Source of the DNA: Plumapathes pennacea
Lineage: Eukaryota; Cnidaria; Anthozoa; Antipatharia; Myriopathidae
Direction: 5' to 3'
Assembly (NCBI GenBank): GCA_964036295.1
Contig: OZ038469.1
Location: forward strand, 15,743,591-15,807,590
DNA length: 64,000 bases
Under the pieces are notes generated by a model. That model was not told where the DNA came from. It made no database searches and worked only from the letters and a program-made list of their open reading frames with translations. Numbering within the stretch: the stretch's first letter is position 1; every line of letters starts with the position of its first letter. Position numbers and translations under genes: made by a program. Shown in pieces: positions 139-63,160 of the stretch.

Positions 139-450
139 AGCACTGTATGCCACTTCATATATACTCTGTTGAACCGGCAAGCAATACGAAATTTAATATA
201 CACTTTAAGGAACCATCTTGCTATGACTCTTGGCAACGTCTTGCGTACTACGTATTTTACAAAGCGGCATCCGAAACAGATTGGCGAAAACAGTTTATTC
301 GGACTTGCTATAGCCACAAGAATCCTGCAAAAGCCAGTGTCCATAGCCTGCAACCTTATACCAATTACACGGTCATGCTTATGACGTTAACGTTTCAAGG
401 ACCAAACATCGCAACCTGGCCACCAAGAACCGTCTTAACATTGGAGGACA
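139..450 (+). CDS. FN3 domain 1 exon
   Basis: Acceptor ctctacag and donor gtaagt flank a phase 1-1 exon. The C-terminal half (YTNYTVMLMTL) is typical FN3 F-strand sequence. The start is divergent and lacks the NTSSTS motif of later repeats. The residue completed by the upstream exon is outside the window. Confidence 0.75.
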
Positions 451-3400
451 GTAAGTAATTTAATTTCTTTCATTTATGTACAAGTAATGCAGTACCAGGG
501 GCCAATTCAATAAAGCATTTACAAGTTGGACTAACTCCTCTGCACGTTAAAACACACTCCAATCCAACACCATGGCCAAAAGCAGTTACAGCTATGCATG
601 CGAAACCGGTATCTGTAATATTTTTCAGGCTTTTGCTTGATTAGAGTCCGTTTATTGGTGTTTAAATAATGGTCCAACTTGTAAAATACACGTGTAAATG
701 TTTATTGAATTGGCCCCAGGACGGGCAAAATAATTGTTGGTTTTCATGGCGCGGCTGACATTGTCAAAATATGTTTGTTTGTTTTTTGTTTTTTTGTTTT
801 TGTTTTTGTTTTTGTTTTTTTGCGGCCGTTCGGTCACCTTATTTTTGAGTCAGCGGTCATTGCACAAAATTGTGGATTGAAGTGCAGATTTTGTAGTTCA
901 GTGTAACGCCCCAACCCCGTTCCCAGGCTCTTTCATCTCGTTGGTAACGCCCTTGTAAAACCTCAAGACGATTACAAATAATAGTCAAGAATATCAGTTG
1001 TACTAAGATCGATACTCAACTAAAAATGTGTGCATTTTCTATAACAAATTTAAGCTGTACAGAAGGAAAACAAGGCTTGTACACCATCGAACTAAAATAA
1101 GTTTAATTAGACAGCCATGGTTACGAATGTTGATCAGCAGAAATGACGTCAAAAACGTATTTCTGCGGTGTCATGGCGGCAACTTCTCAGCTTCACAGCT
1201 TCTCTACAAAACAGCTTTACATTTGTGAAAGTGCCTCCAACATGGCCGCGCTATCTATTGGTTGACATTGGTTGAAATACAACCATGCGTTGTTCAAATA
1301 GACCAATCAGCAGCAATAGCAAACACCATTGCCATTGTTACATCTGTTGGGTTCTGTTACCAGAATGGTGGACATATAACCGGGAACTGTCTGTTTGTCT
1401 GTCTGTCTGTCTGAGAATTTGAACTTGACGTTTCGAGCGCTAGCCCTTCGTCGGAACAAGTACTTGCTCCCTCGAAGAACGTCAGCTTTAAATTCCCCTA
1501 CGGTGTCTAACTTTCACACATCGACCCTTAGTTGATTCAATATACACGCTATTCTCTACGCCGATGCATCTACAATGAGTTGCAAAATTGTTGAGACGTT
1601 CTTTCAAACTAATGATAAATTTCGCGTTTGTTCCTTTAGCTTTAAGTAAAATTGCGCTCAATCTGATTATTTTCCCCTCCCCCTTTTCAGTGTTGATCCT
1701 GTAATACTGTGTAACAGATTTGGGCGCTCAAACAACATTGCAATAGGGGGGAGGGGAGAAGAGAAGCAAACAAGTCCAAAGTCGAAAAACAGGGCGAAAA
1801 TGATATAAAGTGTCTCAACTGTTTTTGCAGCCCGTTGTAGTTCTCCTTGGTGCTAGTTTTTCAATGTGTCTGTCTGTCGGTCTGTTCCTCTGAGTGTTTT
1901 ATTATTATTCTTTCTAGAACCAAACAAACATCCGACTGTCACCAACGTTACGTTGTCGGCCAACAACGAAATCATAATCAAGTGGGATCCTACTAGTATA
2001 CCTGAAAAAAACTGGCGAGGAGTTCCGCAAGGTTTTACTGTCAGCTGGTGGGTGGATAAATGCATAGGAATTGTTAACACGCGTTTGCCACTTAACGTTT
2101 CGTCTTACGTGATACGAAACCTTCGTGGAAATCTCAAATACCAAGTAAAAGTCGCGGGAAGAACTCGTCCTGGTGAAGGACAACCGAAGACAGATGTGTT
2201 AAGAACACACCCTAGGCGTAAGAGTCTTCATTTTGTGCTTTTTAGTGCTTGTTAGTTGAAGGTCCCATAAGCGGACACCTATGGGTTGGGTAAAAAAGTG
2301 TCCGAATACAGAGTTAGATTTTAAACGGGGTTTCATAGAGGCGATCGTAAAATAGAGCTGTCCGCTTCAGAAAGTGTCCATCCAGAGAGCTTCGACTGTT
2401 TATCTCAGTTTGAATGGACGGGAGTTCGCTGGTACAGTAATCCAGTCGCGACCATCGCTCTTGAATGTATGAGAGAGATGTGAGGTTACGACAGCACGGC
2501 TTAGTACAACTCAACACAAGACAGAGTAGTAGGAGGCAGCTCAGCAAAGCACACAAATAGTGCAGAACATCCAAAATCTCCAACATACAATCAGTGACAA
2601 AAGTTCTTGGAAAGCGTTTGAAAATCAACGTATTTTAGACACAAGCCACGGATTATGTATTCTGAAATACAGTCGCGAGACCCTTTCTCTCCCAAACCCC
2701 CCCCCCCCCCTCCCCTTCCCTCTGTACAGTGTTGCGTGTATTTGGCAAAAAATGTTCACGCTACTAGAAACGATAAAAGTGCGAAGAATTTAGAAGTAAC
2801 TCTAGTGCTTCTTTTCCCACAGCCCTAAGAAGTCCTCCGGAGTATATAAAAATCTTCAACACCTCTTCCACAACCATGAGAATTGAATGGACGGAGGTGC
2901 ATTTTTGTGAGCGACAGAGCGAGGTACTGGGGTACAACTTAAACGTAACGGACATTGAAGGAGGAGTGTCCTTGGCGAAATATACTGTATCAGCAAATGA
3001 GTCGAGAATAGTCGACCTGTCTAATTTGACAATTTACTGGACGTATGGTGTAAGAATCCGGGCTTATTCCCACTTGGGCGCGGGTCCCTACAGCGAGGAA
3101 CACAAAAATAAGACGGACGAATCAAGTAAGAACTATTACATGGTTTACGTTAGATTTTCTATACTGATCAACAAAAGAAACGTTGCATTCTAAAATATTA
3201 TGATATGAATTTTATTGGTTTCAATACATCTCAAAAGTCAATCGGTTAACGGCAAAAAGTGTTCACTTATTTTTTATTAAAAATGATAAAAAATATTTGA
3301 CCAATTTACAGGGGTGACGTTTATGTTGTCGCTTACCCTTGTAACGTTTTTTTTTGTCGCTCAGTATATTAGAATGAGCGTTGTGCTGTGTGTTGCGTCA

Positions 3401-6400
3401 AACCGTTTTACAGTCATGTTTCTCTGTGTAAACTAAGCTTTTCTGCTTCTGCTATAATGTACTCATGGAGGGATTCTATTACAGATCTCTTTTGGTTGAC
3501 TAAAGGTACTTGTGGATTTTAACAAAAAAATAATTCAAAGGAATCACAACAGATAATATTCCCGTTCTTCATTCGTTTGAGTGTGGAGAGGAAGGGGCAA
3601 AGTTTTTCAAAGTCACTTGTGTACAGTTCTCTCTCTATTTTTGTTTGTCATACTCATTTTTCTCCCTCCTTAGTTCCCATTGTGGCCCCTTATAACGTCT
3701 CTGCCTACAACACAAGCTCTAGCAGCATTCAAGTCCACTGGAAGTTCGATGTCAACAAGACCCGTGAGATACTCGGTGTCTTGAGAGGGTTCAGAATTTT
3801 CTATAAACGCTCGGACGGCTCTGGAGCAGCGTTGGTTAAGTGGCGTGATAAAACAGCGGAAACAGCTCGGATAGAACAACTTGATGTCTATACGCTTTAC
3901 AATGTGTCTCTAGCAGCAAAGACGAGAAAGGGCCACGGACCGCGAAGTACTACCGTCGTCGTTCGTACCAGGGGTGAAGGTAAAATTTGACTGATCAGAC
4001 GCATTCTTCTTCTCTCAGCAACAGGTCAACTGTATGTAGTTATATAAAATGACTTTTGATCTCTTGCTTCAAGCTGTTGAAGCTGGTTAAACTAGCAATC
4101 ATCCATTTTTCTTTTATGTTTAACCCTTTCACTCCCAAGAGTGACCAACTTCAATTTTCTCATTCAATTTCTCACAAGAAATATAACATACTGTAAGGAG
4201 AATTTGGCTTTTGATAACTTGCTCAGATGAAAGCTGATTGAACTATCAATCCTCACTACATCACTCATAAATTTTCTTCTTGAAAGGTTGGGAGAATCTG
4301 TAATTTGAGCCTGGGAGTGAAAGGGTTAAGAAGCAGCGTCAGTGAAAAATAAAACATTTTATATTTCTTTGCGGTTCGCACCATAATCCATCATGAAATT
4401 TATGTTAACACAGACATACTGAGATTGAGTGATTTTTTAATACACATTTTCATCCACTAATACCTTTTTTTATTATATAGACACGAGTGTTTTACTGGAA
4501 AATATCCCGTGCGTAAAATCCATACGAAACTACATCCAGGACCCGAGTGGCGTATTTTCCATATCCTTACTAGTGAGGATATCGTTGGCCTCATTTCCCG
4601 CTTATGCACGGTTGTTTGTGCAATTTCTCGTAAAACACTCGTGTCTAATATAATAAAAAGAAAATTACACGGCGGCTTGAAGATATGGATTTTATTTTCG
4701 AGTGGTAAAAACAATATTTTACCACTCGAAAATAAAATTTATATCTTCGCGTCGCCGTGTAATATCCTCTATATATCTGTGTGTGTGTTTTAGCGCCTGG
4801 TCATGCTCCCCATCCAATAAGGATGTTCAACACCAGTTCCACAAGCCTTCAAGTGGAGTGGGGTGAGGTTCCAGTTACATACGTGTATGGCCCTATTATT
4901 GGCTACCGACTGCTCCTTAGGAAAGACAACTACGACGCCGTACTAGAATATCGAAACTTCACTCGGTTTAACCATACCACGGATTTCCAAGACTTGCGTA
5001 AATTCACTGTCTACAGAGTAATCATATGGGCGTATTCTAAAGAAGGAGAAGGTGTTCCGGGAGAAGTCCAGGCACAAACGGACGAGGATGGTAAGTGTTT
5101 ATCCCCCCCTCCCCCCCCCCCCCCCCCCGCCTAAATTCTCCAAGGCCACCTATTATGTAGAAAATGTACGAGTGATGTGATGCGAACTTATAGTTTTGAT
5201 CAGTTGTTGTCTAAACGGATAAAGTGTCAGATATCGACTCCAACATGGCTTCATTTTCTTGTTGTAGTATAGACTCTCATCACGCGTCCGCCATCTTGGA
5301 TTTGAAACGAGGCTGGACGGGCTTGGAGGGGGGGAGTCATACTAATTTTCTGTGCGGTTAGGCGAACGATCACGTCGTGTACCGCTGTGTAATCCAAGAT
5401 GGCGGCCACGTGATAAGGGTCTATCGCGTTGATTTCGAAGCTGGAGAATGGCTGTATAGACGCTGTTTTTAAATCCAAGGACAGTACTTGTTATTACTTA
5501 TATTAGAGCCGTTCACGGATGACTCTCAAATACCAAAACCAAAGCAGCCAATCACAGAGGTTGGAAGAAATGTTTTCAGCCAATCAGAATCGGTTTTGAT
5601 ATGAAGAAGACATCAATCATCAATGCGAGGAAACGCCATCACCACTTGTTTGTTTGCGTGAGAATATCGCAATCAGTTTTTGCTTTTGCTTCCGATTGGC
5701 CAAGATGCTGCCAAACTTGTTTGAACCAATCCGAAAGCGAAGCAAACGCAAAACTAAAACAGTCACATGATAACTTTCGACAGTCCACCGCAAACGGCTC
5801 CATTGTTGTAAGTTCTGTACAAAGTGTCTGTCTCCCATGAGCTTTAATCCTACATACACTGAGCCTCACGAACCTCAATATTATCTTTTACTGCAGTCCC
5901 CACTTGTCCTCCTACAAACCTGACTGCTCACAGCACAAGTTCTACCAGCATCATGGTCAGTTGGCAATACGTACTGTGGTCTTGTCGCAATGGGATTATC
6001 CGAGGATATCACCTGATGCTGACAAATGCCTTTACCGGACAATCTGAGTTGAACTACACGATCGCTGATCCAAACCAGCTGAGTTTTGAGATTCTCCAGC
6101 TATGGAAATACAATTGGTACAACCTCTCCATTTTAGCCTTCACAGTGAAAGGTAACGGGCCGGACAGTCCGCCATTCCTGGTCAGGACCGCAGAGGATGG
6201 TGGGTAATTTCTTATCTGGGCCCGGTTGTCCCAAGTTTGATTTATGCGTGTTTTCAAACGTCAAACTTCACATGAGACCAATACAATATAAATGGGGTTA
6301 AAACTATTGTTTTAACTAATTCACATTGTATTTGACTCATGTGAAGTTTGACGTTTAAAACATGCCTTAGGAATCCAGGAATAACCAAATGTCCTTTTCA

Positions 6401-9400
6401 AAAGTCTTGGTTCACAAACTAGAAGACCGTAGCCAGAAACTATAACAGAGCAACTTGTCTTAATATGTTCTGTTATTTCTTTCTCGATCAAAAATACAGT
6501 ATTTGATCAATTTGATATCTTATGTTTTAAATATTTCTTTATCTCTACCGACAAGCATTTGTATATGCCTGGGTTGATGTCATGTTGTAACAAGTTCGAA
6601 ATATAAAATCGTAGGCGCGACACTATGACCAAGAAATACAGATTTACTTGATGCTTACTTGAATTTTATTGACAAGTACTTTGGCCGCCCCATGCTCACC
6701 TTAAATGTTTGTGTGTGTGTGTGTGTTGTACCACCTAGTTCCCAAAACAGCTCCATATGACGTCAAGGGCCACAACACGAGTTCTACAAGCCTTCTATTG
6801 CAGTGGAAATTTGATACAGCCGACACGAACGTACTGGGCATCCATCGCGGTTTCTCAGTATACTACAAGAACATCAATGATACACGCTGGTATTGGTGGT
6901 GGAGAGTCGACCTATTGGATCCTAGCGCGTATGGTTACGAGCTTAGAAACTTGAAGAAGTACAGAGACTACAGCATCCGCGTCGCCGGACGAACCAGTGT
7001 GGGACCCGGAGAACGGAGCAACGCCATCATCCTGAGGACTGATGAAGACGGTGAGTATAACAGAGTGATTAGTTGCTAAATTCTCCTCTCTCTTTTAAGT
7101 AAAATTATGCAGTTAACTGTGGAGAATATGGAAAATTGGCAAGTGATTCCGTGCTTGGGTTGAAGCTGATCATACTAGCAATTCTTCTAACGCTACTCGC
7201 ATATTTTGTCCAGTGCAAGTTGGGGGAATTAGTCTCTGGACTGTGGGACTGTAAGCATTGATTATTAACATTATATTATTCCGTTAGTAAAAATAAGAGC
7301 TCTGTTTTAGGAATCCGAGTTTAAATCTGCCTAGCACAATTCGGGCTTGAAAACCTTCACCCTAATGTTTAGAAGCTGGAATCCGGAGTTAAAAATTTCC
7401 GATTCTATTATTTTCCATAACTGGATACCTTTATTTTCAAATAATCTGTTTTCGAGAATTTTGTTCTGATACCCTGCCTCTAAGTTACCAACGTTTTGTT
7501 TTGTTTTTTGCCAGTTCCAATTTCTCCGCCCAGTAACGCACGAGGCTCAAACACCAGTTCAACCAGTCTGCAAGTAGCCTGGGACGAGGTTCCATTTCCA
7601 GACCAGCTGGGAATTATTCTTGGATATCGCGGGCTCTTATGGAGAACAAATCAGAGTGACGTCATCCTGTACAACCAAACCGTTGATCCTGAAACTCGAG
7701 CGCTAAGTTTCTCCGGACTAGAGAAGTTTACAAATTACACCTTCCAAGTGTTGGCGTTTAATGTGAAAGGAAGCGGTCCTGCCAGTCCGGCGTTGATAGT
7801 CATCACAGATGAAGATAGTAATTATTCAAAGTTGTGCGTGCGTCTTAGCTTGACGTGTCCCAGATTTTAGAAACAAAACGTTTTGGCGTGCTCACGAAAA
7901 CACGTTGTAGAAAACAGCTTTGAAACCACATACATTCATTTTAGAGGCCTTCTGTAACAAGAGGTAGTGCTTTTTCATCCATTATGCCAAAAGAAACTTC
8001 GTCATAGAAGAAACTTAACCATATTTCTTTCATTACATAGTGCCTACCAGAAAGCCGCGAACAGTTGCTGCCTGGAATACCAGTTCGACCTCAATAATGA
8101 TCACTTGGCAACCACTGGCAGATGAGTACTACTTGCACGGATTGTTAAGGGGGTACAATTTGTCTTTCCGAAGGACAGACGGCAGAGGATCAAAAAGAAA
8201 CTTGCTATTTTGCGAAAATCAGCTGGCTGGCGAGATATCTGGTCTTGACGAATTTACGAACTACACGATGCAAATTTGCGCTTTCAATTCGAAGGGGGCA
8301 AGCCCTGAACAAGAGATTCAATGCATCACGGATCAAGATGGTATGGTTGTGTTTTAGTTTCTGTTGTGTTTTCTTTTTTCTTTTTTTTTTTAATCATTTC
8401 TGATTTTGAAGTTGACTGATGAATGCCGGTCCCATTTCTCTAGCACCGAGTGCACCACCTCAAAACGTCACCGGCTACAACCTCACCAAGCATGACATCT
8501 ATGTACACTGGAATCTGGTCCCAAAAGATGACACCAACGGAATCATACTTGGCTATCGAGTCTTTTTCAAAGAGACGCATGGTTCTGATGCACAGGAGTA
8601 CAACTTAACGGTGCATTTCCCAGATAGAAATGTTACCTTAAGCCCTCTTCGACCCTTTACGTTTCACTCCATTCAAGTCTGTGCTTTCACAGCCAAAGGA
8701 GATGGCCCCAGAAGCACAGCGATAGTGGTGCAGACAGAGGAAGAAGGTAGGCGAAAATTGCAATAGCAGTGATTAGGTGAACGAATATGACAAGATGCTA
8801 TTTGATAAGTTGCTTTCTTGTCTCTTTTATTTTTTAATAATCAACCAGCTTGGAAAACCTGCTGAACACTCGTCCACGCTCAACGAATGGGGGAGAGATA
8901 ATTCGGCCCCAAGCCATGGTGAATTATGCCTATAAATCCGACGAGCGCTTAAATGCTAAGCTGATTAACCTATCAATTCTCACTACATCATTCATACATT
9001 TACTTCTTAAAATGTTGAGAGTATTTGCATTTTGAAATTGGGATTGATAAAATACTTTTTCTTCTCTTAGCGCCTCAAGTAGCCCCATGGAATGTGACCG
9101 GTCACAACACCAGCTCGACGGACCTGTCGATCCGATGGGACCCGATTCCACCCGAACAAGTAGCGGGAGTGCTACGACTGTACCGAGTGATGTACAATGA
9201 ATTGAATGACGTAGGAGAGGTGGTCAAGAGCCAGTCGACGTATCTACTAACGTCAACTTTGTTCGTTGAGCTGGGAAATTTAACAAAGTATACCAACTAC
9301 ACTATTGAAGTCCAGGGGATCACGAAGTATTACGGAATAAGAAGCTCTCCCATCCGGATAACAACCGCTGAAGATGGTAAGGAAACTCAAATACTATAGA

Positions 9401-12400
9401 GCGCTTTTCAGATGACTGTCGAAAACCAAAACCAAAGCAATCACAGAGCCAATCAATGAAGGGAGTAAAAACACATCCGACCAGTTAAAAGTACATGCAA
9501 ACCAAAACGAAACCAAGTGCGATTGATTTCACTAACCAATCAACAGTGCGAGAACACGCCATCGCCACTTGCTTTCTTGTGTGAGAATCATATCGACCAT
9601 TTATCTTCATTGCTATTGAGAGCAAAATAACAATAGTAAAAACAACGGCTTTTTAGCGTTGTGTTAGCTCAGTGCTTGTCATAACCAAATCAATCAATAA
9701 ATGTTCTCGGTTAGTCAACTCGCGCGTGCCAATTTGTGGTGTTGTAGGTGATAATATAGGTTGTTTAATAATACATTTGTTGGTCTAATGAGAATTACAT
9801 GACTTAAAATTTGCAGTTCCAAGTCGACCACCTCAAGAGCCGCATGCGCGAAACATCAGTTCCACGAGTTTGCTGATTACGTGGAAGCCAATCCAGAAAG
9901 ATTCTGTAAACGGAATTCTTCGAGGATATCGCATATCTTTCAGCGTAAAAGAAACAAGAAGGCGAAGAAGAGGAATAACGATCGGCAAGGTGTTCACAGT
10001 GTTACCAAACACAACTTTCCTGTTGGTTGACAATTTGGAGAAATTCACTGTGTATACCTACAGCGTTCTTGGCTTCACAGTAATGGGAGACGGAGTTTCC
10101 ACCCAGAGGGGAGAAATTGCAACTGATGAAGATGGTAAGTGACGTTAAAATCCTAACTCTAGTCGAAACAAGACGTCGAGAGTCATAGTATGCCCACAAT
10201 TCCCGCCAAAAATTGGTTGAACATTCCGTTCTTATTGCTCTCGTTGGCTCCCTCCCCTCCCCCCTCCCCCCCCCAAGAAGCCTCCCCCCCCCAAGAAGCG
10301 GCTTTGAAGAATGGGTTTTAGTTGAAATTCTTTACGTTTTCCATGTGCACTTTCAACTAGGTTTGGCGAGGATTAAAGCTTTTTTTGTGAATTCCTTGTG
10401 TAGGAAAGAAACACATTTATTTGGTACATCTTTCGGTTCTCTTTGGCCCTAGTTAACCTATAAATAAGCCAGCAAATTCAGTTACTAACGCTCCAAAACA
10501 GTAAATTCAGGCATCCTTTCCTAACGCTTCTTTTCTTACAACAGTGCCAAGCAAACAACCAACTAACGTAAGTGTGGTCAACCAAACTGCACCGCACACC
10601 ATCACGGTGTTCTGGCAACCCGTGCCTAAGGAATACATGCACGGCTTGCTCCGCGGTTACCGTGTGCTGTACAAGAAGGTCAAGGTGGCTGACGAGGGCG
10701 TTTCGGGGCTGGAGATCATCAAAACTGTCGATCAGTGGACGCTCAATACAACGCTGTTTGAAATGGACAACTTTGCGGTGTATAGAATATCCGTGTTAGC
10801 GTTCACCGTGAAGGGAGATGGACCAAGAAGCAAGGCAATCTATGCAGGTAACGGCTAATATTTATTCACAGGAAATTTATCTGATTGAAAAACGATCACA
10901 TACACGAAACAACAATCAAACAAACGCAGAGATGTATGTGAACAAACAGTGGGGAATATTATCTCCCAGCACAGAGCAATGGAGGTTCAAATTACAGTGT
11001 TTGTGTTGTTTTGATGCCTTCATCTTCATTGGGAAGGGGGGGGGGGGGGGGGGGGTGACATAAATGGTGAAGGAGACTGATCTATGGACAGTTTGGATTA
11101 CTCAGTACTCTTCAAAACAGTTTTCTCTTTTTCGCATCAGCGTTCTAGTCCAAAGCCCAATAATATCAAAGGAAACTCTGGAAAGTGAAGTGTCCTAACT
11201 GTTTAGTGCGTCTCTGAGTCTAAAGTAGCCTGAACACAGGCTCTCCACTTCGGTTTCTGATGAGCGCGCGCGGGGGTGACCTGGGGAGAGGTAGAAAATA
11301 AAGACGAGGGGGGTGGGGGAGGGGAAGGAGGGGAGACTTGCCCCAGTTCAGCCGCGCGCGCTGCTTGACAAAAAACCGAAGCGGAGAGCCCGTGTGCTGG
11401 CTAAGTCTAAAGCTGATTATCTTTCCTCCTCACCAGAGACTTGCCGCTGCCGAAAAGTCCTCTCCACGAACTGGTATGATCATACACCCTACATTTCGTT
11501 TACCAATGCAACGGCCAGAGGCGTTATACCGTTTGTCCTGGAACCAGCGATTGACTTTTGCTGCAAACGGTGCATACACGGTCATGGAGAGTCAGTTATC
11601 GACTACGTCTTCGACGGGCGCAACCATTCGGCTAAGAAAAGAAGCAACTCCGAGTTAATGCGTCAGATCAACCACAACACAGACCTGAGTTTTCCTCTGA
11701 TTGGATTTGCAGAACAACAGAAGTACGGAATACATAAATACGTTGGACTTCTGGAGTCCGGCGGCGTAGCTTACGTTGTCATGACTGAGTCCACTGAAGA
11801 GCGGGCTCATATTATTTTCCACGCCGTTTTACATACAGCTCCATCATTGTTGTTAACTTCCCTTGTTCTGATTATTGTCGGGATCTGTATGTGGACATTG
11901 GTGAGTATTGCGTCCTTCTTTATGTTTTTAGATGACTATCGAAAACGTAGCCTGCGAATACGGCCGTCTCCCGTCGGGCATGGCTTTGACGGGAGACGGC
12001 TGACCTGTGTTTGAAGGCTCAGTATCGAATGTAATTCTGCGATTGGTTTAGTGTTGCGTTTATTTGTTACGCTTTTGCTGGATTTGTTCGAACATGTTTT
12101 GCGGCATTCTTGGCCAATCAGGAACAAAACTACTCAATGCGGTTGCGACCTCCTCATGCACGTAAGCAAGTGGCGTCTTCTCACACTGCTAACAGGTCTC
12201 TCGTTTCAAAGTAAAAAGCTGGAGTGAAATAACACACTCCCCGTTTCCAGCTTTAATTATGCTGTAATTTGTTTATTTTATGTTTTTATTTAGCCTTAAA
12301 TTGTAAATTAATTATATGTATTAAAATTTGTCGCTTCTAGTTTGGAAGAGGTGCCACGCGTTGTTTCCTGATCGGTCGTATTATGCCGCACAGCTTCCTC

Positions 12401-15365
12401 CAGTCAACACGGAACTTGCGTGACTGACAGCAAAAGTTTTCCAGTGCAACTTGAACATGCATAATTTTTTTGTAGCTTTGCACGTTGAAGTCTAAATAGC
12501 TGTTGTTGGGGGACTGCAAATTTATAATCTCTTTTTTCTTACTCAGGAAAGAAACTCCATGGAATATTCCCCTTCTTTTATTAAAGGAGCCATAGACGGA
12601 ACATGGTGGGCATTCACTACCATGACAACAGTTGGGTAAGTTGCAAACGTGAGTAAATCTAAACATTAAAGGCTTCTGTTAGATTTTGAATAGTCAATAC
12701 CTAGAGGGCGACGTGTTGTCCGTGAGAAGAGGTCGCAGTTAATGGAACCGTTCACACTGAAAAAATAAACTGGATAAAATCTCTGAATAGTTCGAAACGC
12801 TAAGTGTCAGCGTTCCTGCATGTACTGTTTCACACCATTTTCTTTCCTCGTCAGGTTTCGTGCCATTCCGAGAATTTTCTGAGAATCTTTTCGCCAGATT
12901 CCTGCCTTTCCTTTCGCTAGAAGGGAGACGAGACAATCATATCTCGTCGATTTTTTTGGCAAGAAGACTGCAAAAATACAAAATCCTACTATAAGCTGTC
13001 TTGAGCGTATTGCAGTTTTCACATATCAAAGTCCTCTGTGTAGAGACTTGAAGGACAAAAAATATCTATTTCTTTTTCTGAAGGTACGGCGACAAAACAG
13101 CCCTGAGTATCCCTGGACGGTTATTTGCCATCTCCTGGACTCTTATGGGGCTGGTTATCTCGTCAATACTGGTCGCCCAAATTACTAACGAGCTCGTGTC
13201 GTATACTGTTACCGCTTCGAACAAAAGAGTTTATGGAGCTAAGGTGAGCCCGCGCTAGACCATCGATGGTTCAAATGAAACTTGTCAATGACATCATCCA
13301 ACATGGCGCCCTGAACAACGTGGGCACAATATTTCAATATTTTATACGTAAAAGGTAAAATGTAAGTGTCTGTCAAAGAGAAGGGATTGTTGGATAAAGG
13401 TGACTTTACAGAGATTTCATAAGTAGGCGAGGCAATTCTATAAGTGCGGGGTAACTGAAAAGAAGGAGTGACAGTTGCGTGGAGTTTGAGAAAGAGTTTT
13501 TATATGAAAACAGGACATGAAAGATGTGCCATGTTCTTTTGGCTGTTTGTAATGTATAAAGTGTTTTATGTTGAATTCACTATGCGTACTTGCTCGACAG
13601 GTCGCGACGATCTATGATTCTCCGGAGTATCGTCTTGGCGTGAGAAAGAACGCTCTTGTTGACACTGGTGAGTAACAAAAAATGCCATGGCGTCGGGTCC
13701 AAGCAATATTTGCAATTTGAAAATTTCTCCGAATACACGCATCAAGAGTTCCGGCTTTTGGTTGGATTGCACTGTATTCTGGGTAGGTTTGGCTCAGGAA
13801 AGTGAGCACCAACTTAACAATATCCGCCATTTTGCACTTCACGCTTGGAGCTCAGTCAACTTCTATCCGTTCTAAAACGTTCACATCTACCAAGCTCCAA
13901 GCTTGGATGCAAAATGGCGGATATTGTAAAGTTGGTGCTCACTTTTTTGAGCCAAACCTACCCATAATACAGTGCGATCCAACCAAAAGTCTGAACTCTT
14001 TTGTGATTGCGTCAAACTGAGGCGCCTACTTCGAGACACTAGAACTTACAAAATGGCTATATGGATAGCAACAACTGAGCTTGCAAATCCGCTGTTCGTA
14101 AAACTTTTAAGCCCTCGATATATCAAACATCAAATGCATTATTGAAAAGCACCGCTTGAACTTTCGTTCCCAATCCAAAATCATGGAGAGACATACAAGA
14201 ATCTGCGATATTTGTATTTTGTTTTAGCTTCACTGACGCGGAATTATCTATGTGAGCTACTGCGATTTGAGAAAATGACGCCACACCTGAAATTGATAAT
14301 CAGGTCGCAGGAACGCGGCGGCGGGAAATACAGAGAGTTTGAATGCAGAAAATGTAAGATTTTAACTACTGATTTGGCAGAAAAAGTAAAATATTGAGCT
14401 ATGTGGTCGTAGCAGCAATTTATACGTAAGAGTAAGTAATGTGAACGCGTTCCACTGAATTTCCTATTTGTCTAAAGGAACTAAATACTTCACATACGAG
14501 GATGTCAACAAAGCTCTGGTGAATAAAGAAGTGGACGGAGCTCTGGTGGACCTGTATACATATTCAAACAAACAGGACTTGTTCTCGCATCCCTCTTTAC
14601 GGATTGTCAAAGTCATGGACTACAAGACCACGTACGGGGTGGTAATGTCCGGGGACACGATGAAATTACAAAAGTGCCTAAATGGTTTCGTGAAGTTTAA
14701 CAGAGGCAAGGTTTTTGGCTATGTCGAAGAGAACGTACAAATCGTAGAGGTAAAAATGTGTTAAGAGTTTTTACTACATAAACTCTGGTGTGATATAGAG
14801 ATTTCCGCCACTGAGAAATGTCGTATCTGAACACACGTAAAATACGATATTTTTACGTGTGTTAATATCAGCCAAGCAGTGATCGGAAATCTCTGTATCA
14901 CACCAGAGTTTACGAAATAAACAGAATAATACACGGACGCTTGGAGACGAGTTAGAGAAGATAACGAGTGAGATATCGAGATAAACACGAGAAGATAAAT
15001 TTATATCTCTGCGCGTCCATGTATTATTCTCTATATTCATAATACATGCCTTATGGGTACTTAATTTTGCGGGACTTTAATTTCGCAGAAATAAGGTATA
15101 GAATATATAATAGGTATAAAATAAGATTTTAGTTTTACATATAGCCATACTTTTAATTATATTGGGACCATAAAAACAAACCTAAAAAGGTTAGATTTAC
15201 ATGTTCGTTTGCCCAGAGACCAGAGTTCTTTTTGTAGGGACGCTATCAGCGTTAGCGTCTCCGCTTCATTTTAGTAATGTTTCGGATTTTATAACCAGTG
15301 TATAAATTTTGCGATATCTTCTTTTCGCGGGTCTTTAATTTCGCTTTTTCTTTCTTTTTTCCTTT

Positions 15366-15428
<63 letters not shown>

Positions 15429-16480
15429 TATTTTTTGTGCAATCATGCGGTGAATTGCGAAAATTAAGGTCCGCGAAAAATAACCCTTTCACTAAGCACA
15501 TGATCTGGGTGAGAAATTTTTCTATTTTTTGGGATGTGCAACGCTCCTTACTAGATGCAGATTACGACGCAAGGGAAGACAGACAAACAACACATACGAG
15601 ACTCTATTTGTGTTCTTTTTTCCAGAAACACAAGCCTATATCAGAGGAGATTTCTTCAGGACTCTTTGATTCTGAATCGAAGCAGTTTTTTCAGAGTGTC
15701 TTCATGACGGGACTGCTACTGGTGTTTGGCCTGGTGTGTGGTTCAGTTTATGATGTGTGTCGACGAAGAGTTCAACGAAACAAAGTTGCGGCCTGTCATG
15801 CAGGTATTTCTAAACCTCTGGTCCAAAATTATATTGCCATGGAGAAACATGGGTAGTACTATTGCTCTTATATCGTTTAACTGAACATCATTACAAGCTC
15901 GACTCGAGACCGGGCCCAAGTTATGGGTGAATCTTTTTCTTCGTCTACAGTGTCCGGTTGTCTTCAATCACGGGAACCCATTCTTCAAAAACAACTTTAA
16001 GAGCTATTCACAGTGTAATGTATCTCACGATGGACTGAACTGGCAACGAAATGCAAAGATTCTTTCCGCGTAAACCCGATTGTGTACAATTACTGGGAAA
16101 TAGTTTATCGAAAAGCAATCTCATTATCAAACTATTAAATGTCATTTTAGTGTTTTAGAGGAGTGCGCTGATGACCCAGTACTAAAATTCACTTTCACTT
16201 ACTGCACGTAACTGACAAGAATTTGTGCTCTGTCCGTACAGAAAAGGTCAGCAACCTCAGGGACTTGACATTGATAGTCGGTGAATTTAACGAGAATGTC
16301 AGGATCCTGATCGGTGACTTGAAGAGGAAACACTTTGTGGAATGGCAACGTTTGAGGAGCATCAAGAAATGGCAGAAAGGTTACGAAGTCCGCGACAAGA
16401 ACCTCGTTATCACCCGAATGGACACTATGAAAAACGTGCAAGAGGAGTTGAAGAAGTTCAACTTCGAGACATATGCATGA
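139..16480 (+). CDS. FN3-repeat receptor fused to a K+-selective, iGluR-like channel (5' partial)
   Basis: Twenty exons are visible, joining to an open frame of about 1810 residues: 139-450, 1918-2217, 2823-3125, 3674-3979, 4794-5090, 5897-6199, 6739-7050, 7515-7817, 8041-8340, 8444-8746, 9071-9376, 9817-10134, 10545-10847, 11437-11900, 12547-12635, 13084-13243, 13601-13667, 14478-14749, 15626-15803, 16242-16480. Each of the first 13 encodes one FN3 domain. The remainder encodes an S1-like lobe, helix M1, a pore loop reading TTMTTVGYGDKTA, an inner helix, an S2-like lobe containing VDGALVDLYTY, a further helix and a basic helical tail ending in TGA. Known family logic: S1-M1-P-M3-S2-M4 is the order of ionotropic glutamate receptors; the K+ filter recalls cyanobacterial GluR0 and rotifer AvGluR1. 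Inference: a plasma-membrane K+ channel with a long adhesive, glycosylated ectodomain. The ligand is unknown. The first exon begins in phase 1, so the start codon is upstream of the window. Confidence 0.85.
1426..1452 (-). repeat. Retroelement-tail-like motif GACGAAGG..CGAAACGTC
   Basis: Read on the minus strand this is nearly the same as 50033-50060 (GACGAAGG, then a variable core, then GCTCGAAACGTCA). Similar sequence recurs in many invertebrate genomes just downstream of reverse-transcriptase genes. That assignment is from general knowledge. No RT frame is visible nearby. Confidence 0.4.
1918..2217 (+). CDS. FN3 domain 2 exon
   Basis: Acceptor tttctag, donor gtaaga, phase 1-1. FN3 landmarks are the IIIKWDP B strand, GFTVSWW C strand and YQVKVAGRTRPGEGQ F-G strands. 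Confidence 0.8.
2823..3125 (+). CDS. FN3 domain 3 exon
   Basis: Acceptor cttttcccacag, donor gtaaga, phase 1-1. It contains FNTSSTTMRIEW, GYNLNVTD and YGVRIRAYSHLGAGP. The true exon begins 53 bp before the first ATG in the frame. Confidence 0.8.
3674..3979 (+). CDS. FN3 domain 4 exon
   Basis: Acceptor tctccctccttag, donor gtaaaa, phase 1-1. It contains YNTSSSSIQVHW, GVLRGFRIFYK and YNVSLAAKTRKGHGP. Confidence 0.85.
4120..4329. mobile_element. MITE, TTAACCCTTTCACTC family, copy 1
   Basis: The terminal inverted repeats TTAACCCTTTCACTCCCAAG and its mirror CTGGGAGTGAAAGGGTTAA bound about 210 bp without coding capacity. The body matches 38345-38555 along its whole length. It lies in the intron between FN3 exons 4 and 5. 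Confidence 0.85.
4472..4656. mobile_element. MITE-like inverted repeat (ACACGAGTGTTTTAC arms)
   Basis: The arms around 4474-4499 and 4630-4656 are almost perfect complements (GACACGAGTGTTTTAC / GTAAAACACTCGTGTC). It abuts a second hairpin element at 4660-4764. Confidence 0.75.
4660..4764. mobile_element. Near-perfect hairpin MITE
   Basis: Two arms of about 50 bp, meeting at TTTTACCACTCGAAAATAAA, are almost complete complements with a loop of only a few bases. Outer ends contain TTACACGG / CCGTGTAA. A related end sequence occurs at 14922-15030. The element stops about 30 bp before the FN3-5 acceptor. Confidence 0.8.
4794..5090 (+). CDS. FN3 domain 5 exon
   Basis: Acceptor gtgtgttttag, donor gtaagt, phase 1-1. 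It contains FNTSSTSLQVEW, GYRLLLRK and YRVIIWAYSKEGEGVP, and ends on the recurring linker TDEDG. A poly-C tract follows directly in the intron. Confidence 0.85.
5107..5130. repeat. Poly-C tract
   Basis: An almost uninterrupted C run just inside the intron after FN3 exon 5. Its length is likely uncertain in assembly. Confidence 0.8.
5270..5422. mobile_element. MITE-like inverted repeat with CCATCTTGGATT arms
   Basis: TAGACTCTCATCACG..CCGCCATCTTGGATT on the left mirrors AATCCAAGATGGCGG..CGTGATAAGGGTCTA on the right. Each arm carries a YY1-like CAAGATGGCGG core. It is intronic between FN3 exons 5 and 6. Confidence 0.7.
5897..6199 (+). CDS. FN3 domain 6 exon
   Basis: Acceptor cttttactgcag, donor gtgggt, phase 1-1. 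It contains HSTSSTSIMVSW, GIIRGYHLML and YNLSILAFTVKGNGP. The NTSS sequon is replaced here by STSS. Confidence 0.85.
6240..6372. mobile_element. Hairpin element (CAAACGTCAAACTTCACATGAG arms)
   Basis: The arms at 6250-6275 and 6337-6362 are inverted copies differing at about one position, around a loop of about 60 bp. It lies in the intron after FN3 exon 6 and has no coding capacity. Confidence 0.65.
6739..7050 (+). CDS. FN3 domain 7 exon
   Basis: Acceptor ccacctag, donor gtgagt, phase 1-1. It contains HNTSSTSLLLQW, GIHRGFSVYYK, an unusual WYWWW aromatic run in the middle strands, and YSIRVAGRTSVGPGE. Confidence 0.85.
7515..7817 (+). CDS. FN3 domain 8 exon
   Basis: Acceptor ttttttgccag, donor gtaatt, phase 1-1. 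It contains SNTSSTSLQVAW, GIILGYRGLLW and YTFQVLAFNVKGSGP. Confidence 0.85.
8041..8340 (+). CDS. FN3 domain 9 exon
   Basis: Acceptor cattacatag, donor gtatgg, phase 1-1. It contains WNTSSTSIMITW, GLLRGYNLSF and YTMQICAFNSKGASP. Confidence 0.85.
8444..8746 (+). CDS. FN3 domain 10 exon
   Basis: Acceptor catttctctag, donor gtaggc, phase 1-1. It contains YNLTKHDIYVHW, GIILGYRVFFK and HSIQVCAFTAKGDGP. Confidence 0.85.
8922..9050. mobile_element. Degenerate MITE, TTAACCCTTTCACTC family, copy 3
   Basis: The internal stretch CTATCAATTCTCACTACATC and the flanking AGCTGATTAA match the bodies at 4120-4329 and 38345-38555. The terminal repeats have decayed. Confidence 0.6.
9071..9376 (+). CDS. FN3 domain 11 exon
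   Basis: Acceptor cttctcttag, donor gtaagg, phase 1-1. It contains HNTSSTDLSIRW, GVLRLYRVMY and YTIEVQGITKYYGIR. Confidence 0.85.
9817..10134 (+). CDS. FN3 domain 12 exon
   Basis: Acceptor aatttgcag, donor gtaagt, phase 1-1. It contains RNISSTSLLITW and GILRGYRISF. A basic TRRRRR run extends the C'-E loop and makes this the longest FN3 exon. YTYSVLGFTVMGDG follows. Confidence 0.85.
10545..10847 (+). CDS. FN3 domain 13 exon (last)
   Basis: Acceptor cttacaacag, donor gtaacg, phase 1-1. It contains TITVFWQPV, GLLRGYRVLYK and YRISVLAFTVKGDGP. It splices in frame to the S1-like exon at 11437. Confidence 0.85.
11037..11056. repeat. Poly-G tract
   Basis: A G run of about 19 bases interrupted once, in the long intron between the last FN3 exon and the S1-like exon. 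Confidence 0.8.
11437..11900 (+). CDS. Channel exon: S1-like lobe and first membrane helix
   Basis: Acceptor cctcctcaccag, donor gtgagt. It enters in phase 1 and leaves in phase 0. The sequence opens with a Cys-rich stretch (ETCRCRK), then a PBPe S1-like region with a double-Cys helix (FCCKRC) and DLSFPL, and ends with a hydrophobic helix, TSLVLIIVGICMW. The canonical alpha-carboxylate-binding Arg of amino-acid iGluRs is not obvious where it would be expected, so an amino-acid ligand cannot be assumed. Confidence 0.8.
11961..12003. repeat. 13-bp perfect hairpin GCCGTCTCCCGTC
   Basis: GCCGTCTCCCGTC and GACGGGAGACGGC are separated by about 12 bases. It is intronic, about 60 bp after the M1 exon donor, and may be the centre of a decayed palindromic element. 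Confidence 0.5.
12547..12635 (+). CDS. Channel exon: pore helix up to TVG
   Basis: Acceptor ttcttactcag, donor gtaagt. It encodes GTWWAFTTMTTV plus two bases of the filter glycine. It enters in phase 0 and leaves in phase 2, so the intron interrupts the selectivity filter. Confidence 0.85.
13084..13243 (+). CDS. Channel exon: YGD of the filter and inner helix
   Basis: Acceptor ttctgaag, donor gtgagc. It completes TVGYGDKTALSIPGR, then runs into the inner helix (FAISWTLMGLVISSILVAQI) and TNELVSYTVT, a gate-like continuation. TVGYGD is the signature of K+-selective pores. Confidence 0.88.
13601..13667 (+). CDS. Channel exon: start of S2-like lobe
   Basis: Acceptor gctcgacag, donor gtgagt, phase 0 to 1. 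It encodes VATIYDSPEYRLGV, in the position of the VAT...G...Y segment that opens S2 in PBPe proteins. The MITE at 13733-14010 begins about 65 bp into the following intron. Confidence 0.75.
13733..14010. mobile_element. Long-TIR MITE in channel gene intron
   Basis: Terminal inverted repeats of roughly 110 bp (left arm from CACGCATCAAGAGTTCCGG to about 13850, right arm from about 13893) include GGTTTGGCTCAGG and TCCGCCATTTTGC. They enclose a short centre. The same right arm is found at the window start. Confidence 0.85.
14478..14749 (+). CDS. Channel exon: S2-like ligand-binding lobe
   Basis: Acceptor ttgtctaaag, donor gtaaaa, phase 1 to 0. It contains TYEDVNKALVNKEVDGALVD followed by LYTYSN, and DYKTTYGVVMSGDT. 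These align with the VDAxxxDxxxxxY and YGIxxPKGS segments of periplasmic-binding-protein-like S2 lobes. The acidic residue of the first motif is kept. Confidence 0.82.
14779..14912. mobile_element. MITE, TAAACTCTGGTGTGATA arms
   Basis: TAAACTCTGGTGTGATATAG at the left mirrors TATCACACCAGAGTTTA at the right, with a second internal hairpin, ACACGTAAAATACGATA / TATTTTTACGTGTGT. It lies just after the S2 exon donor. Confidence 0.8.
14922..15030. mobile_element. MITE-like inverted repeat, AATAATACACGGACGC arms
   Basis: AGAATAATACACGGACGC and GCGTCCATGTATTATTCT are near-perfect inverted arms about 70 bp apart. It sits immediately next to the 14779-14912 element, the same pairing seen at 4472-4764. 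Confidence 0.75.
15365..15430. repeat. (TTTA)n microsatellite
   Basis: About 16 uninterrupted TTTA units, in the intron before the M4 exon. Confidence 0.95.
15626..15803 (+). CDS. Channel exon: final membrane helix (M4)
   Basis: Acceptor cttttttccag, donor gtattt, phase 0 to 1. It encodes FFQSVFMTGLLLVFGLVCGS, then a basic CRRRVQR stop-transfer sequence, as expected for a last helix with a cytosolic C-terminus. Confidence 0.82.
16242..16480 (+). CDS. Channel exon: helical cytosolic tail and stop
   Basis: Acceptor tctgtccgtacag. It encodes a charged, probably alpha-helical tail of about 79 residues containing LRDLTLIVGEF and WQRLRSIKKWQKGYE, ending in TGA. I recognise no domain in it. Confidence 0.75.
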
Positions 16481-39841: not shown

Positions 39842-42800
39842 AGAGTTTGTAAACTCAACTGTATTTTCTATTTTATCCTCCTATACGTATGAGTACACTC
39901 TAAATTAAAAAGTATGAGTATATTTTTCAATGCCGATAATATCTGACTACTTTGTGCGAGGGACCATCTGCAAATATCGTGTTTCTAGTTACAGTTGAAG
40001 TAGTTGTAAGTGTTCGTAACTGCAAATGTCCGCTCGTGAGAATGTGTCAATACAAAGCTGAGCTATATAGTTTAAACGGGGGGCTTCGTGAAAGGCATCC
40101 GTAAGTAGAGCCGTTCGCTTACGAGAGTGTCCGCCCAAGAGAACTTCGACCGTAGTGTTCGATAAATATTGAAAGAGTGGTAGTTTCGTGGAGGCAGTGT
40201 GGCCGAGTGGTTAGGGCGCCGGACTTTTGAAATCCGGAGGTCCCAGGTTGAAGTCCCGCTCTGACCACTAGCTGAATTTGCAACACGGTAGCCCTGAGTT
40301 CAAATCCTCGGCCACACTTTGTAAATAGCCAACTGGTTAGCCTCCGACCAGTTGGGATTCTTAAAACATTTGCGTTCAGTTTATGATATTTGGTTTCTGC
40401 ATTTCAAGTCTCCCCAATTAGCATGGCAAGTGCTAAATACATTGAAACTTATTTTTATTTTTTCTTGGCTCATGTCCAGTATTGACGAGCTCAATCGAGT
40501 TTAGTCGTGCACGCCTGTACACATCGTTATAAAATCACAAACAAAATGGCTCATAAACAAGGAGGTGGGCATTCCGGCCTCTGTCCAGGGACGATTCTGT
40601 CAACATTGTCGATCATTCTGTACTGTGCTGGCTTCATTAGAGTCGAGTTAAAGTTGAGTGGACATGAAGACCAACTGAACTCTCTTCAGACTCAACACAA
40701 AGCGGCCTCAGGTAAAGTGATCCGTTGCGTAATCTGTCAGTGAATATTCGTTGGTTTAATCTTAGCTCGTGAATGCCGAAGAACAGTCTCTTAAAACCCA
40801 GTTATATGCTGAGATCAGCCTAGTAATCTCCACTAGTGTCTTGTACCCGGGGTGGGAGGGGGGAATTTTTATACAAGCTTTCAACATTTTACCCTTTCAT
40901 ATATATACCTCTAGTAAAAACCGTTGCCAATTTTTATAGGCATATTGAACAGGAAGACGCCTAGAAAAATCGCACACAGCTGACTAGGAAACGCGACGTT
41001 TGCGAAGGTCGCAATTTGATTTCGCTTCATTTTACGTTTTCATCTTCGTTTTTTGGGAAGATGCTGAAACTCAAACATCCTGCGGTTTCTATTGAGCATA
41101 ATCAGATTATTGGCCGACTCCAACTCGAAAGACGGCCCTACAGTTTGTACGCCGAGGAGGATGTTTTAGAATTAAATGACTCTTTAGTCGCTAACTCAAG
41201 TTCTTTAATTAACAAGCGAAAGTCTTGTTTGACTCACCAAGCGCTTTAATCGTCGGTGCCTTTTACTAAGAGCACATACAGTTACTTGTTGCGACTATAG
41301 GTTTACGGTGATCAAGGACCGTTCCCACGTGACGTCATCACGATTCTAAAATCTAAACTACTGATCTAACAAAGCTGTTAGTAACCTTAACGCGCGAGTA
41401 AATTTTCGATGTATAAAGTACATTGTTTTAGAAGGCGTTTTGAAATTTGCGACGGCCTCTGTCACAAAAAAAATTAACATTCGCACATTTTAGAAATTTT
41501 CAGATACAAATATGATAAAGAAACAAAGGTAATATCATAAGTGTTCCAAATTGAAAACTAAGGATATCCATGTGAAAATTTTTGTGCTTACATTTTGGGC
41601 CGCCATATTGGTGTGCCAAAAGGATAAACCAATATGGCGCGGACGCATACAAAATTCTGTATTTTTTTTTTTTTAACATTGTTTTCCAACTAACGGCAAA
41701 ACATTTGGCCGAATTATTTATTCGTACCTACTCTATAACACCTAAAAATTTCGATACATATCATGCAAACAATTGTATTTTATTTTACTGATGCATACAT
41801 ACGCCCTATATCAAGCGGAGGAATTCTTAATCTACACAAGACTGGAAGTCAGCCAGTGTACTCCACCCAAGTTGTTACGAGAGATTATTTTAGTGATACG
41901 CCCGCCACCGGTCTTGCTAACGAAACAGATTCAAAATGATTTGACTGAGTGATAAACGGATTTGCATTTCATGCGACGACAGCCTTGTTATAGGATCGAC
42001 AACTGCAGGACTGGATTTGTTTCTGTATCCCAGAATGCTAAAACTCTCGAAGTTATTCATCCTCTGATTACAATCTTCAAAAAACGCCCTGTTTGTAAAG
42101 ACAGTCAAAGTTAGAAAGGTCTATATGCAGCCTTTCTTTTACTTTTTTTTCTTATTTCTTTTATTTCTTTTCTTTTCTTTTCTTTTCTTTTCTTTTCTTT
42201 TCTTTTTTCTTATTTCTTATTTCTTTTTTCGTAGCAATCCCGGTTTAGTGAACCTTTTAGTGAATTGTCTTCGCGTTTATGTTGGATCTCCTTTAGTTTT
42301 CGTGTTTAAATGTTCGGAACGCGTTAACATTATGAAGTACATAAGCTTGGGTATAATCAAAACATTTTGACGATATTGAGTATGTTTTCGTATTAATCGC
42401 CTGCTTTTCCTGCCCTTGTTCAATACGCGTAAGTGCATACAAGGGCACTCGCTTGGATCATGTGAACTTTGCGCGACTTTGATCTTGTCACATAGAGTGC
42501 AATAAAACCACTTATTGCGAAATCCACCCTGTACCACCTCTTCCTCGAGCATATCAAAATTGTGAAAAAATAACGCGAAGTGTTCTATTAGCTGTTTGAC
42601 ATTTGTGGCACCAAGTATGGCAACAAAAAGACGAAGAAAAGCGAAACCTTGTATCCGAACGAAACTCAGATTTTCAGGCGGTACTATATCAAACAAATAA
42701 CACAGCCGACTTGTGCGTTTGTAGGTGATGTGAGCGGTCGAACAAATCAGCCCAGAAAGGCACATGACCGCGTTGTCTTGACAAAAGCTCATTTCTTCTG

Positions 42801-63000: not shown

Positions 63001-63160
63001 ATCCCAAGAATCCAAAACTTCAGGCGAACTGGTCACTTATTATTCACAAGTTCCTCCAAAGTGGATTGTGCGACTGGGAGAGATTTACCAAGCCGATTTT
63101 GATATGTTTGGGTATCCATTTCCTGGACCTCTAAAAGAATTGGTAAAAGACATTTTGTAG
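60019..63160 (+). CDS. Carbohydrate sulfotransferase, copy 2
   Basis: Exons 60019-60142, 61523-61645, 62028-62083 and 62378-63160 join to 361 residues. The organisation and splice phases are the same as copy 1. The signal anchor SVLVLVAFISMFLIMSW is unchanged. PAPS motifs are IPKVASRTLR and VREPFGRLLSGYKDKF. The end GPLKELVKDIL is identical. Copy 2 has two residues fewer after FKTG, six fewer at the end of exon 1 and one extra codon in exon 2. Introns 1 and 3 have changed in length by about 480 and 150 bp, so the duplication is not extremely recent. Both copies look intact. Confidence 0.9.
60795..61010. mobile_element. Tigger/pogo-like fragment (CAGTCGAAGCTCTCTGAGCG end)
   Basis: The end CAGTCGAAGCTCTCTGAGCG and repeated GTAAGCGGACA / CATAAGCGGCC match other fragments at about 2265-2400, 33120-33275 and 40070-40150. 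It lies in intron 1 of sulfotransferase copy 2. There is no transposase. Confidence 0.55.

Follow-up and report, generated by a model that had tools for sequence, protein, structure and literature searches.

AvGluR1, a rotifer ionotropic glutamate receptor (iGluR) with a K+ filter, was reportedly described by Janovjak in 2011. In the available portions of the papers cited here, Synechocystis GluR0 is reported to act as a K+ channel and to be inverted in its topology (PMC13099474), and a viral K+ pore has been gated by a mammalian glutamate-binding domain (PMC6385376; PMC12332018). According to a 2010 survey, as far as its available text goes, a glutamate-binding site and a K+ filter are combined in bacteria only (PMC2950845), and AvGluR1 is cited as the eukaryotic, animal exception, a K+-filter iGluR (PMC12332018, PMC3483616). 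The same two papers are sources for citing K+-selective glutamate-receptor-like channels as a link from K+ channels to synaptic receptors, and the second of them describes the SYTANLAA-like M3 motif of animal iGluRs.

A combination of fibronectin type III (FN3) and Ion_trans_2 domains in an anthozoan was met in one paper only of the literature searched, subscription journals and preprints lying outside that search. The accessible part of this paper, published in 2016, lists in its Table 4 the Nematostella transcript Nv1971 with FN3, TLD, MAM, F5_F8_typeC and Ion_trans_2 (PMC4877951). Nv1971 is called sidekick-2 there, is placed in an anthozoan-specific group and ranks among the top nematosome transcripts; in the main text it appears in that Table 4 row alone, and K+ channel GO terms are over-represented in the nematosome (PMC4877951). 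The words fibronectin and GYG are absent from the main text of two iGluR surveys, as available (PMC6307864, PMC12226733).

Here we analyse a locus of the black coral Plumapathes pennacea in a stretch of 64,000 nucleotides (the window; contig C8, positions 15743591-15807590, plus strand, of a 290-Mb genome in 24 contigs). Our main reading, to which we give a probability of about 0.72, is that one gene encodes a large receptor channel composed of a LamG-like and SEA-like head, 13 FN3 domains, a GluR0-type channel, an added helix M4 and a tail.

Gene structure and domain order

A single open frame runs on the plus strand through 20 exons from 139 to a stop at 16480 and encodes 1811 residues (Table 1). 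An earlier note made from the letters of this DNA had proposed these 20 exons in one frame, and each of them lies where it had been placed: all 19 introns are GT-AG, the phases match throughout, and the exons contain no stop and no frameshift and keep the filter intact. The 13 FN3 exons (139-10847) all have phase-1 ends and lengths that are multiples of three; seven channel exons (11437-16480) follow, the channel part starting at residue 1323. The domain order is thus 13 FN3, an S1-like part, M1, a TTVGYGD pore loop, M3, an S2 lobe, M4 and a tail.

Table 1. Exons of the gene within the window and what they encode
Feature	Position	Strand	Basis or remark
FN3-like domain 1 exon	139..450	+	weakest match; phase 1 at both ends
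FN3 domain 2 exon	1918..2217	+	gene model, Pfam
FN3 domain 3 exon	2823..3125	+	gene model, Pfam
FN3 domain 4 exon	3674..3979	+	gene model, Pfam
FN3 domain 5 exon	4794..5090	+	gene model, Pfam
FN3 domain 6 exon	5897..6199	+	gene model, Pfam
FN3 domain 7 exon	6739..7050	+	gene model, Pfam
FN3 domain 8 exon	7515..7817	+	gene model, Pfam
FN3 domain 9 exon	8041..8340	+	gene model, Pfam
FN3 domain 10 exon	8444..8746	+	gene model, Pfam
FN3 domain 11 exon	9071..9376	+	gene model, Pfam
FN3 domain 12 exon	9817..10134	+	gene model, Pfam
FN3 domain 13 exon	10545..10847	+	phase-1 splice to channel; like junction in paralogs
S1-like part and helix M1	11437..11900	+	gene model, family alignment, hydropathy
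M1-pore linker, pore helix, first filter half (TMTTV and two bases of Gly)	12547..12635	+	
Remaining filter (GYGDK), helix M3, S2 start	13084..13243	+	phase-2 intron splits first filter Gly
S2 lobe, first part	13601..13667	+	
S2 lobe, main part, with invariant Asp (ALVD) resembling the GluR0-type 'YD' residue	14478..14749	+	
Helix M4 and basic flank	15626..15803	+	hydropathy
C-terminal tail and stop	16242..16480	+	gene model

The exon at 139 had been taken as the first of the gene. Because it opens in phase 1 it is not the first exon, and the gene begins upstream of the window. In the adjoining upstream stretch (L009) we placed two features by eye: a LamG-like exon at about 7725-8388 and, after it, a group of three short exons (at about 8904-9018, 9283-9341 and 9439-9585), whose frame continues into exon 139 and which may encode a SEA-like domain. 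A Pfam scan of this upstream head named neither a LamG nor a SEA domain, and neither a start codon nor a signal peptide was found. A LamG-like exon also lies 14 kb upstream of a close paralog on the same strand (C9_7164; 28%, E 4.3e-7), as one of five non-self matches.

The HMM check suggested in the earlier note, with fn3, Ion_trans_2 and Lig_chan, was borne out for the first two domains and not for the third. Pfam found 13 fn3 stretches at a per-stretch limit of E 1 (whole-protein E 1.1e-115), domain 1 being weak (16.5 bits in a scan that included the upstream head, where the cut-off is 25), and the channel part matched Ion_trans_2 at 8.9e-12; the Lig_chan match of 19.5 bits stayed below its cut-off of 30.8. 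A LIVBP-type amino-terminal domain had no Pfam match in the window part of the gene, and a profile of the FN3 exons matched nothing in the 47.5 kb that make up the rest of the window, so that the FN3 signal of this gene lies well above chance. N-glycosylation sequons number 40 in the FN3 part and two in S1, with none in S2 and none after M4.

Several neighbouring features were noted by eye. Upstream of the window (L009-L011) there are tandem four-repeat NaV-like channel genes, one pore of which reads CGEWIE, and what is probably a small mobile element, a repeat that also has an inverted copy, occurs at 1-60 and about 13720-13990 of the window and again at the end of L009. Further along the window on the plus strand, two similar adjacent stretches (42768-43983 and 49185-50802) in which Ig-like domains follow collagen-like Gly-X-Y repeats are apparently a tandem gene pair, and another tandem pair (58181-58969 and 62378-63160) consists of very similar long ORFs resembling carbohydrate sulfotransferases.

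A gene family in the same genome

When the genome was searched with the channel part 87 matches were obtained, and 20 further loci could be modelled with a splice-aware aligner, 11 on contig C4, 8 on C9 and 1 on C12. At least three more S1-type matches (two on C11, one on C9) lie outside the modelled loci. As judged from these models the family has at least 21 genes in this genome. The filter T(V/L)GYGD is present in all 20 paralogs (18 TTVGYGD, 2 TTLGYGD), all of which also have the first glycine of the filter split by a phase-2 intron; their other intron phases are mostly those of the window gene.

The linkage of FN3 exons to the channel is likewise family-wide. All 20 paralogs open their S1 exon at an AG acceptor in phase 1, and in 18 of them the 1.5 kb upstream contains an FN3 exon of the same strand, as against none of 40 control loci of the same genome scanned with the FN3-exon profile (partly overlapping, 137,633 bases in total). 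The two exceptions, L026 and L030, have no FN3 in the 1.5 kb upstream, and one paralog (L043) carries 11 FN3 stretches in 10 kb. The single gene with an FN3 ectodomain that the earlier note had proposed can therefore now be seen across a gene family.

Seven C4 paralog pairs with dS of 0.09-0.13 gave dN/dS values of 0.26-0.41 over the S1 exon. Three near-identical C4 pairs (dS under 0.02) gave 0.59-0.89 and are little informative, and pairs with L022, L027 or L028 (0.46-0.85 and 1.75) were left out because exon length differs or the sequences are near-identical.

Three distant pore exons, L166 (C4, 8.57 Mb), L167 (C12, 2.68 Mb) and L168 (C4, 13.22 Mb), have YGD right after a like split of the filter glycine, so that the wider family is larger than the 20 modelled loci. 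By eye, the M3 ends of these three look even nearer the bacterial ones. The genome also contains 56 Lig_chan matches, of which some are K+-type pore exons (e.g. C4:8572742) and many are ordinary iGluR exons (on C2, C3, C6, C10 and others); receptors with a K+ filter have therefore not replaced iGluRs in this animal.

Channel core and its relation to bacterial receptors

The hydropathy profile has three membrane helices, of which the first precedes the pore loop and the other two follow it. The iGluR-like topology around a TVGYGD pore that had been claimed for this gene is thus supported by the helix order, and the filter recurs in the paralogs. K+ selectivity is predicted here from the filter alone. 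M3 reads ILVAQITNELV, compared with YTANLAASL in an iGluR of the same genome. The Ion_trans match covers just profile positions 122-237 of 241, and there is no S1-S4 voltage sensor before the pore. With a single helix before the pore loop, the gene does not fit a voltage-gated K+ channel.

Across an alignment of 14 members, S1 keeps four cysteines (channel positions 3, 5, 43 and 46) and its PY without variation, and S2 keeps an aspartate, which all 17 paralogs with S2 sequence have as well. By eye this aspartate corresponds to a conserved bacterial aspartate (64 of 69 rows), the profile alignment putting it close to, not always on, that column. We take this position to be where such binding proteins hold the amine of the ligand. 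The arginine of S1 is present in 62 of 69 bacterial rows and none is conserved in the S1 of the family, where the sole column with arginine in at least 8 of 14 rows is the variable position 4 (9/14). Searches of Pfam and of PDB profiles with S1 joined to S2, leaving out the pore, returned no binding-protein match, and AlphaFold models of the S1 and S2 exons, made singly and without an alignment, were unusable (mean pLDDT 44.4 and 43.0). The S1-like lobe of the earlier note is thus recognised neither by Pfam nor by the PDB profile search; what stands of it is a marginal likeness to bacterial S1 in a profile-profile comparison, at E 0.0011 over 27 columns (a PPY...G stretch) and 0.13 when the alignment was forced to be global.

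In a single-sequence search the pore resembles K+ channels, as any K+ filter would. The family alignment was then used to scan prokaryotic genomes, described by the tool as covering 84,980 species. A K+ filter motif served as seed together with one motif from S2, and the scan could therefore return such proteins alone. At least 358 prokaryotic relatives were confirmed and the best 80 were kept, one of them (L118) incomplete. Among these best 80, Ion_trans_2 and Lig_chan were each found in 80, SBP_bac_3 in 79 and Lig_chan-Glu_bd in 74, and by these domains the 80 are GluR0-type receptors, not voltage-gated channels. One of the bacterial rows matches PDB 2pyy, a bacterial ionotropic glutamate receptor homologue, and 1iit (Slr1257).

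Profile-profile comparison (hhalign) of the family with 69 of the 80 bacterial rows gave 3.3e-43 for the transmembrane part and 5.3e-6 (probability 86) for the S2 lobe, the next best other bacterial segment reaching 0.0034; Pfam leaves this lobe unrecognised. Against six iGluRs of the same genome the values were 1.7e-7 for the transmembrane part, 0.068 for S2 and 0.34 for S1. The likeness of the lobes to iGluRs is therefore not significant, and the bridge that worked is the one to the bacterial GluR0-type rows. The iGluRs themselves match bacterial S1 and S2 far better (4.6e-19 and 1.7e-20), and so the lobes of the family have diverged far more than those of iGluRs. Scored with the transmembrane profile of the family, the 80 bacterial rows, which had been chosen for likeness to it, reached a median of 96 bits, as compared with 51.5 for Kv channels (n=4) and 6.8 for iGluRs (n=6) of the same genome. 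The bacterial likeness is not confined to the filter: the M1-pore linker and M3 share in it.

In a tree of the pore region the family forms one clade and the iGluRs another (100/99 each), neither lying inside the other, and the tree does not settle the order in which they join. This tree comprised 16 of the 21 family members, 24 of the 80 bacterial rows (taken at random among those of at least 330 residues), six iGluRs and four Kv channels, and its bootstrap was not fully settled. The AU test rejected none of the constrained trees (family with iGluRs, p 0.425; with Kv, 0.145; with bacteria, 0.0765), so that retention, regain and acquisition from bacteria are all possible. The K+ filter and the iGluR-like plan put forward in the earlier note hold, and the ancestry is probably other than it had assumed, pore and S2 being closest to bacterial GluR0-type receptors and not to the iGluRs of the same genome. 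The core would then not simply be an animal iGluR with a changed filter. GluR0-type, as we use it, denotes the lineage of pore and S2; we do not file the gene as an amino-acid-binding GluR0, because the ligand-binding arginine of S1 is absent.

Alternative readings, proposed working and known systems

If an FN3 adhesion protein and a channel were two adjacent genes joined on paper alone, the fitting splice sites around 10847-11437 would tell us little, since they are not themselves evidence of splicing. The phase-1 acceptor of the S1 exon and the same-strand FN3 exons found throughout the family argue against such a pair, as do the open frame of the S1 exon (11295-12014), which has no methionine ahead of ETCRC, and the listing of FN3 and Ion_trans_2 together in one Nematostella transcript, which supports the fusion by analogy as far as the accessible Table 4 goes (PMC4877951). 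We regard two genes as very unlikely. A pseudogene or an assembly chimera, in favour of which nothing was found, is harder still to believe, given 20 exons free of stops and frameshifts with an intact filter, 20 loci of like plan, and the dN/dS values of the seven informative C4 pairs.

Both of these readings concern the gene as a whole, and two others concern its channel. It could belong to the ordinary animal iGluR lineage, with a K+ filter regained or kept, as may hold for AvGluR1. Its S1-M1-P-M3-S2-M4 order is indeed that of iGluRs, and GluR0 has no M4 according to the available text of PMC6385376; an end-to-end collinear profile alignment with the iGluRs of the same genome reaches 2.3e-8, carried by the membrane part, and the AU test leaves the grouping with iGluRs standing. 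We nevertheless consider this origin unlikely, because the transmembrane part and S2 are much nearer to bacterial GluR0-type receptors (96 against 6.8 bits, with six iGluRs compared), because that likeness continues into the M1-pore linker and M3, and because neither clade is nested in the other. The channel might also be a constitutive or mechanically coupled K+ leak, in which the clamshell binds nothing and the FN3 chain serves to tether the channel or to sense force. An S1 that has diverged beyond recognition by Pfam and lacks a conserved arginine fits this alternative, which we consider unlikely; the invariant S2 aspartate, S1 cysteines and S1 PY make the lobes look constrained, which speaks against it.

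For the receptor channel that we favour, the three helices with their pore loop, the spread of sequons and the basic flank after M4 would put the lobes outside and the tail inside the cell, and the pore loop would consequently enter from the inside as in iGluRs. Four subunits would build an inverted K+-selective pore, and the clamshell of S1 and S2 would close on an extracellular ligand and pull M3 open. K+ would then leave, hyperpolarising and so silencing the cell. The FN3 chain may anchor the receptor at contacts or in the matrix, or present a partner to the clamshell. S1 has no conserved arginine that could hold a carboxylate; conventional binding of a standard amino acid is therefore improbable, and the ligand might be an amine or a protein partner kept close by the FN3 chain. 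The inverted topology of GluR0 and the glutamate-binding domain placed on a viral pore make it plausible, by analogy, that a clamshell of this kind opens a K+ pore on ligand binding.

The presence of some 20 more such genes in the genome suggests an animal receptor class not yet described. It leads us to speculate that GluR0-type channels, retained or acquired apart from iGluRs, were fused to adhesion domains and grew to dozens of genes for contact- or ligand-gated inhibitory receptors, a proposal on which we are evenly divided. If it were correct, natural ligand- or contact-gated K+ channels would be available for study and a possible class of inhibitory receptors would be added to those of animals. 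A large animal family would moreover allow pores that were retained, regained or acquired to be told apart.

Among described systems, Nv1971 is alike in having FN3 and Ion_trans_2 in one transcript and differs in also listing TLD, MAM and F5_F8_typeC; the comparison is of domain lists, not of sequences, and follows the accessible Table 4 (PMC4877951). The earlier note knew of no described family with such an FN3 architecture, a statement that this transcript narrows. The iGluRs of the same genome share the helix order and a transmembrane likeness of 1.7e-7, whereas the six that were read have no K+ filter and keep the classic S1/S2 motifs, and the control loci have no FN3 exon. The marks of animal iGluRs (AMPA, kainate, NMDA and epsilon), namely a SYTANLAA-like M3 gate and a non-K+ pore, are absent from the window gene. 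AvGluR1, going by its partly available descriptions, is likewise a eukaryotic receptor in which a TXVGYG filter goes together with an iGluR-like architecture; it is set apart by that description, since the gene described here has FN3 domains instead of an amino-terminal domain, and its pore and S2 resemble those of GluR0. The GluR0-type receptors (Synechocystis Slr1257; 'Group 1' in the available text of PMC2950845) have the same order of lobe, M1, K+ pore loop, M3 and lobe, and resemble the family in M1-pore-M3 (3.3e-43), in the S2 lobe with its aspartate and in their Ion_trans_2 and Lig_chan signals. Compared with them the window gene has a strongly diverged, cysteine-bearing S1 without the arginine of most bacterial rows, and adds M4, a tail, introns and an ectodomain of 13 FN3 domains.
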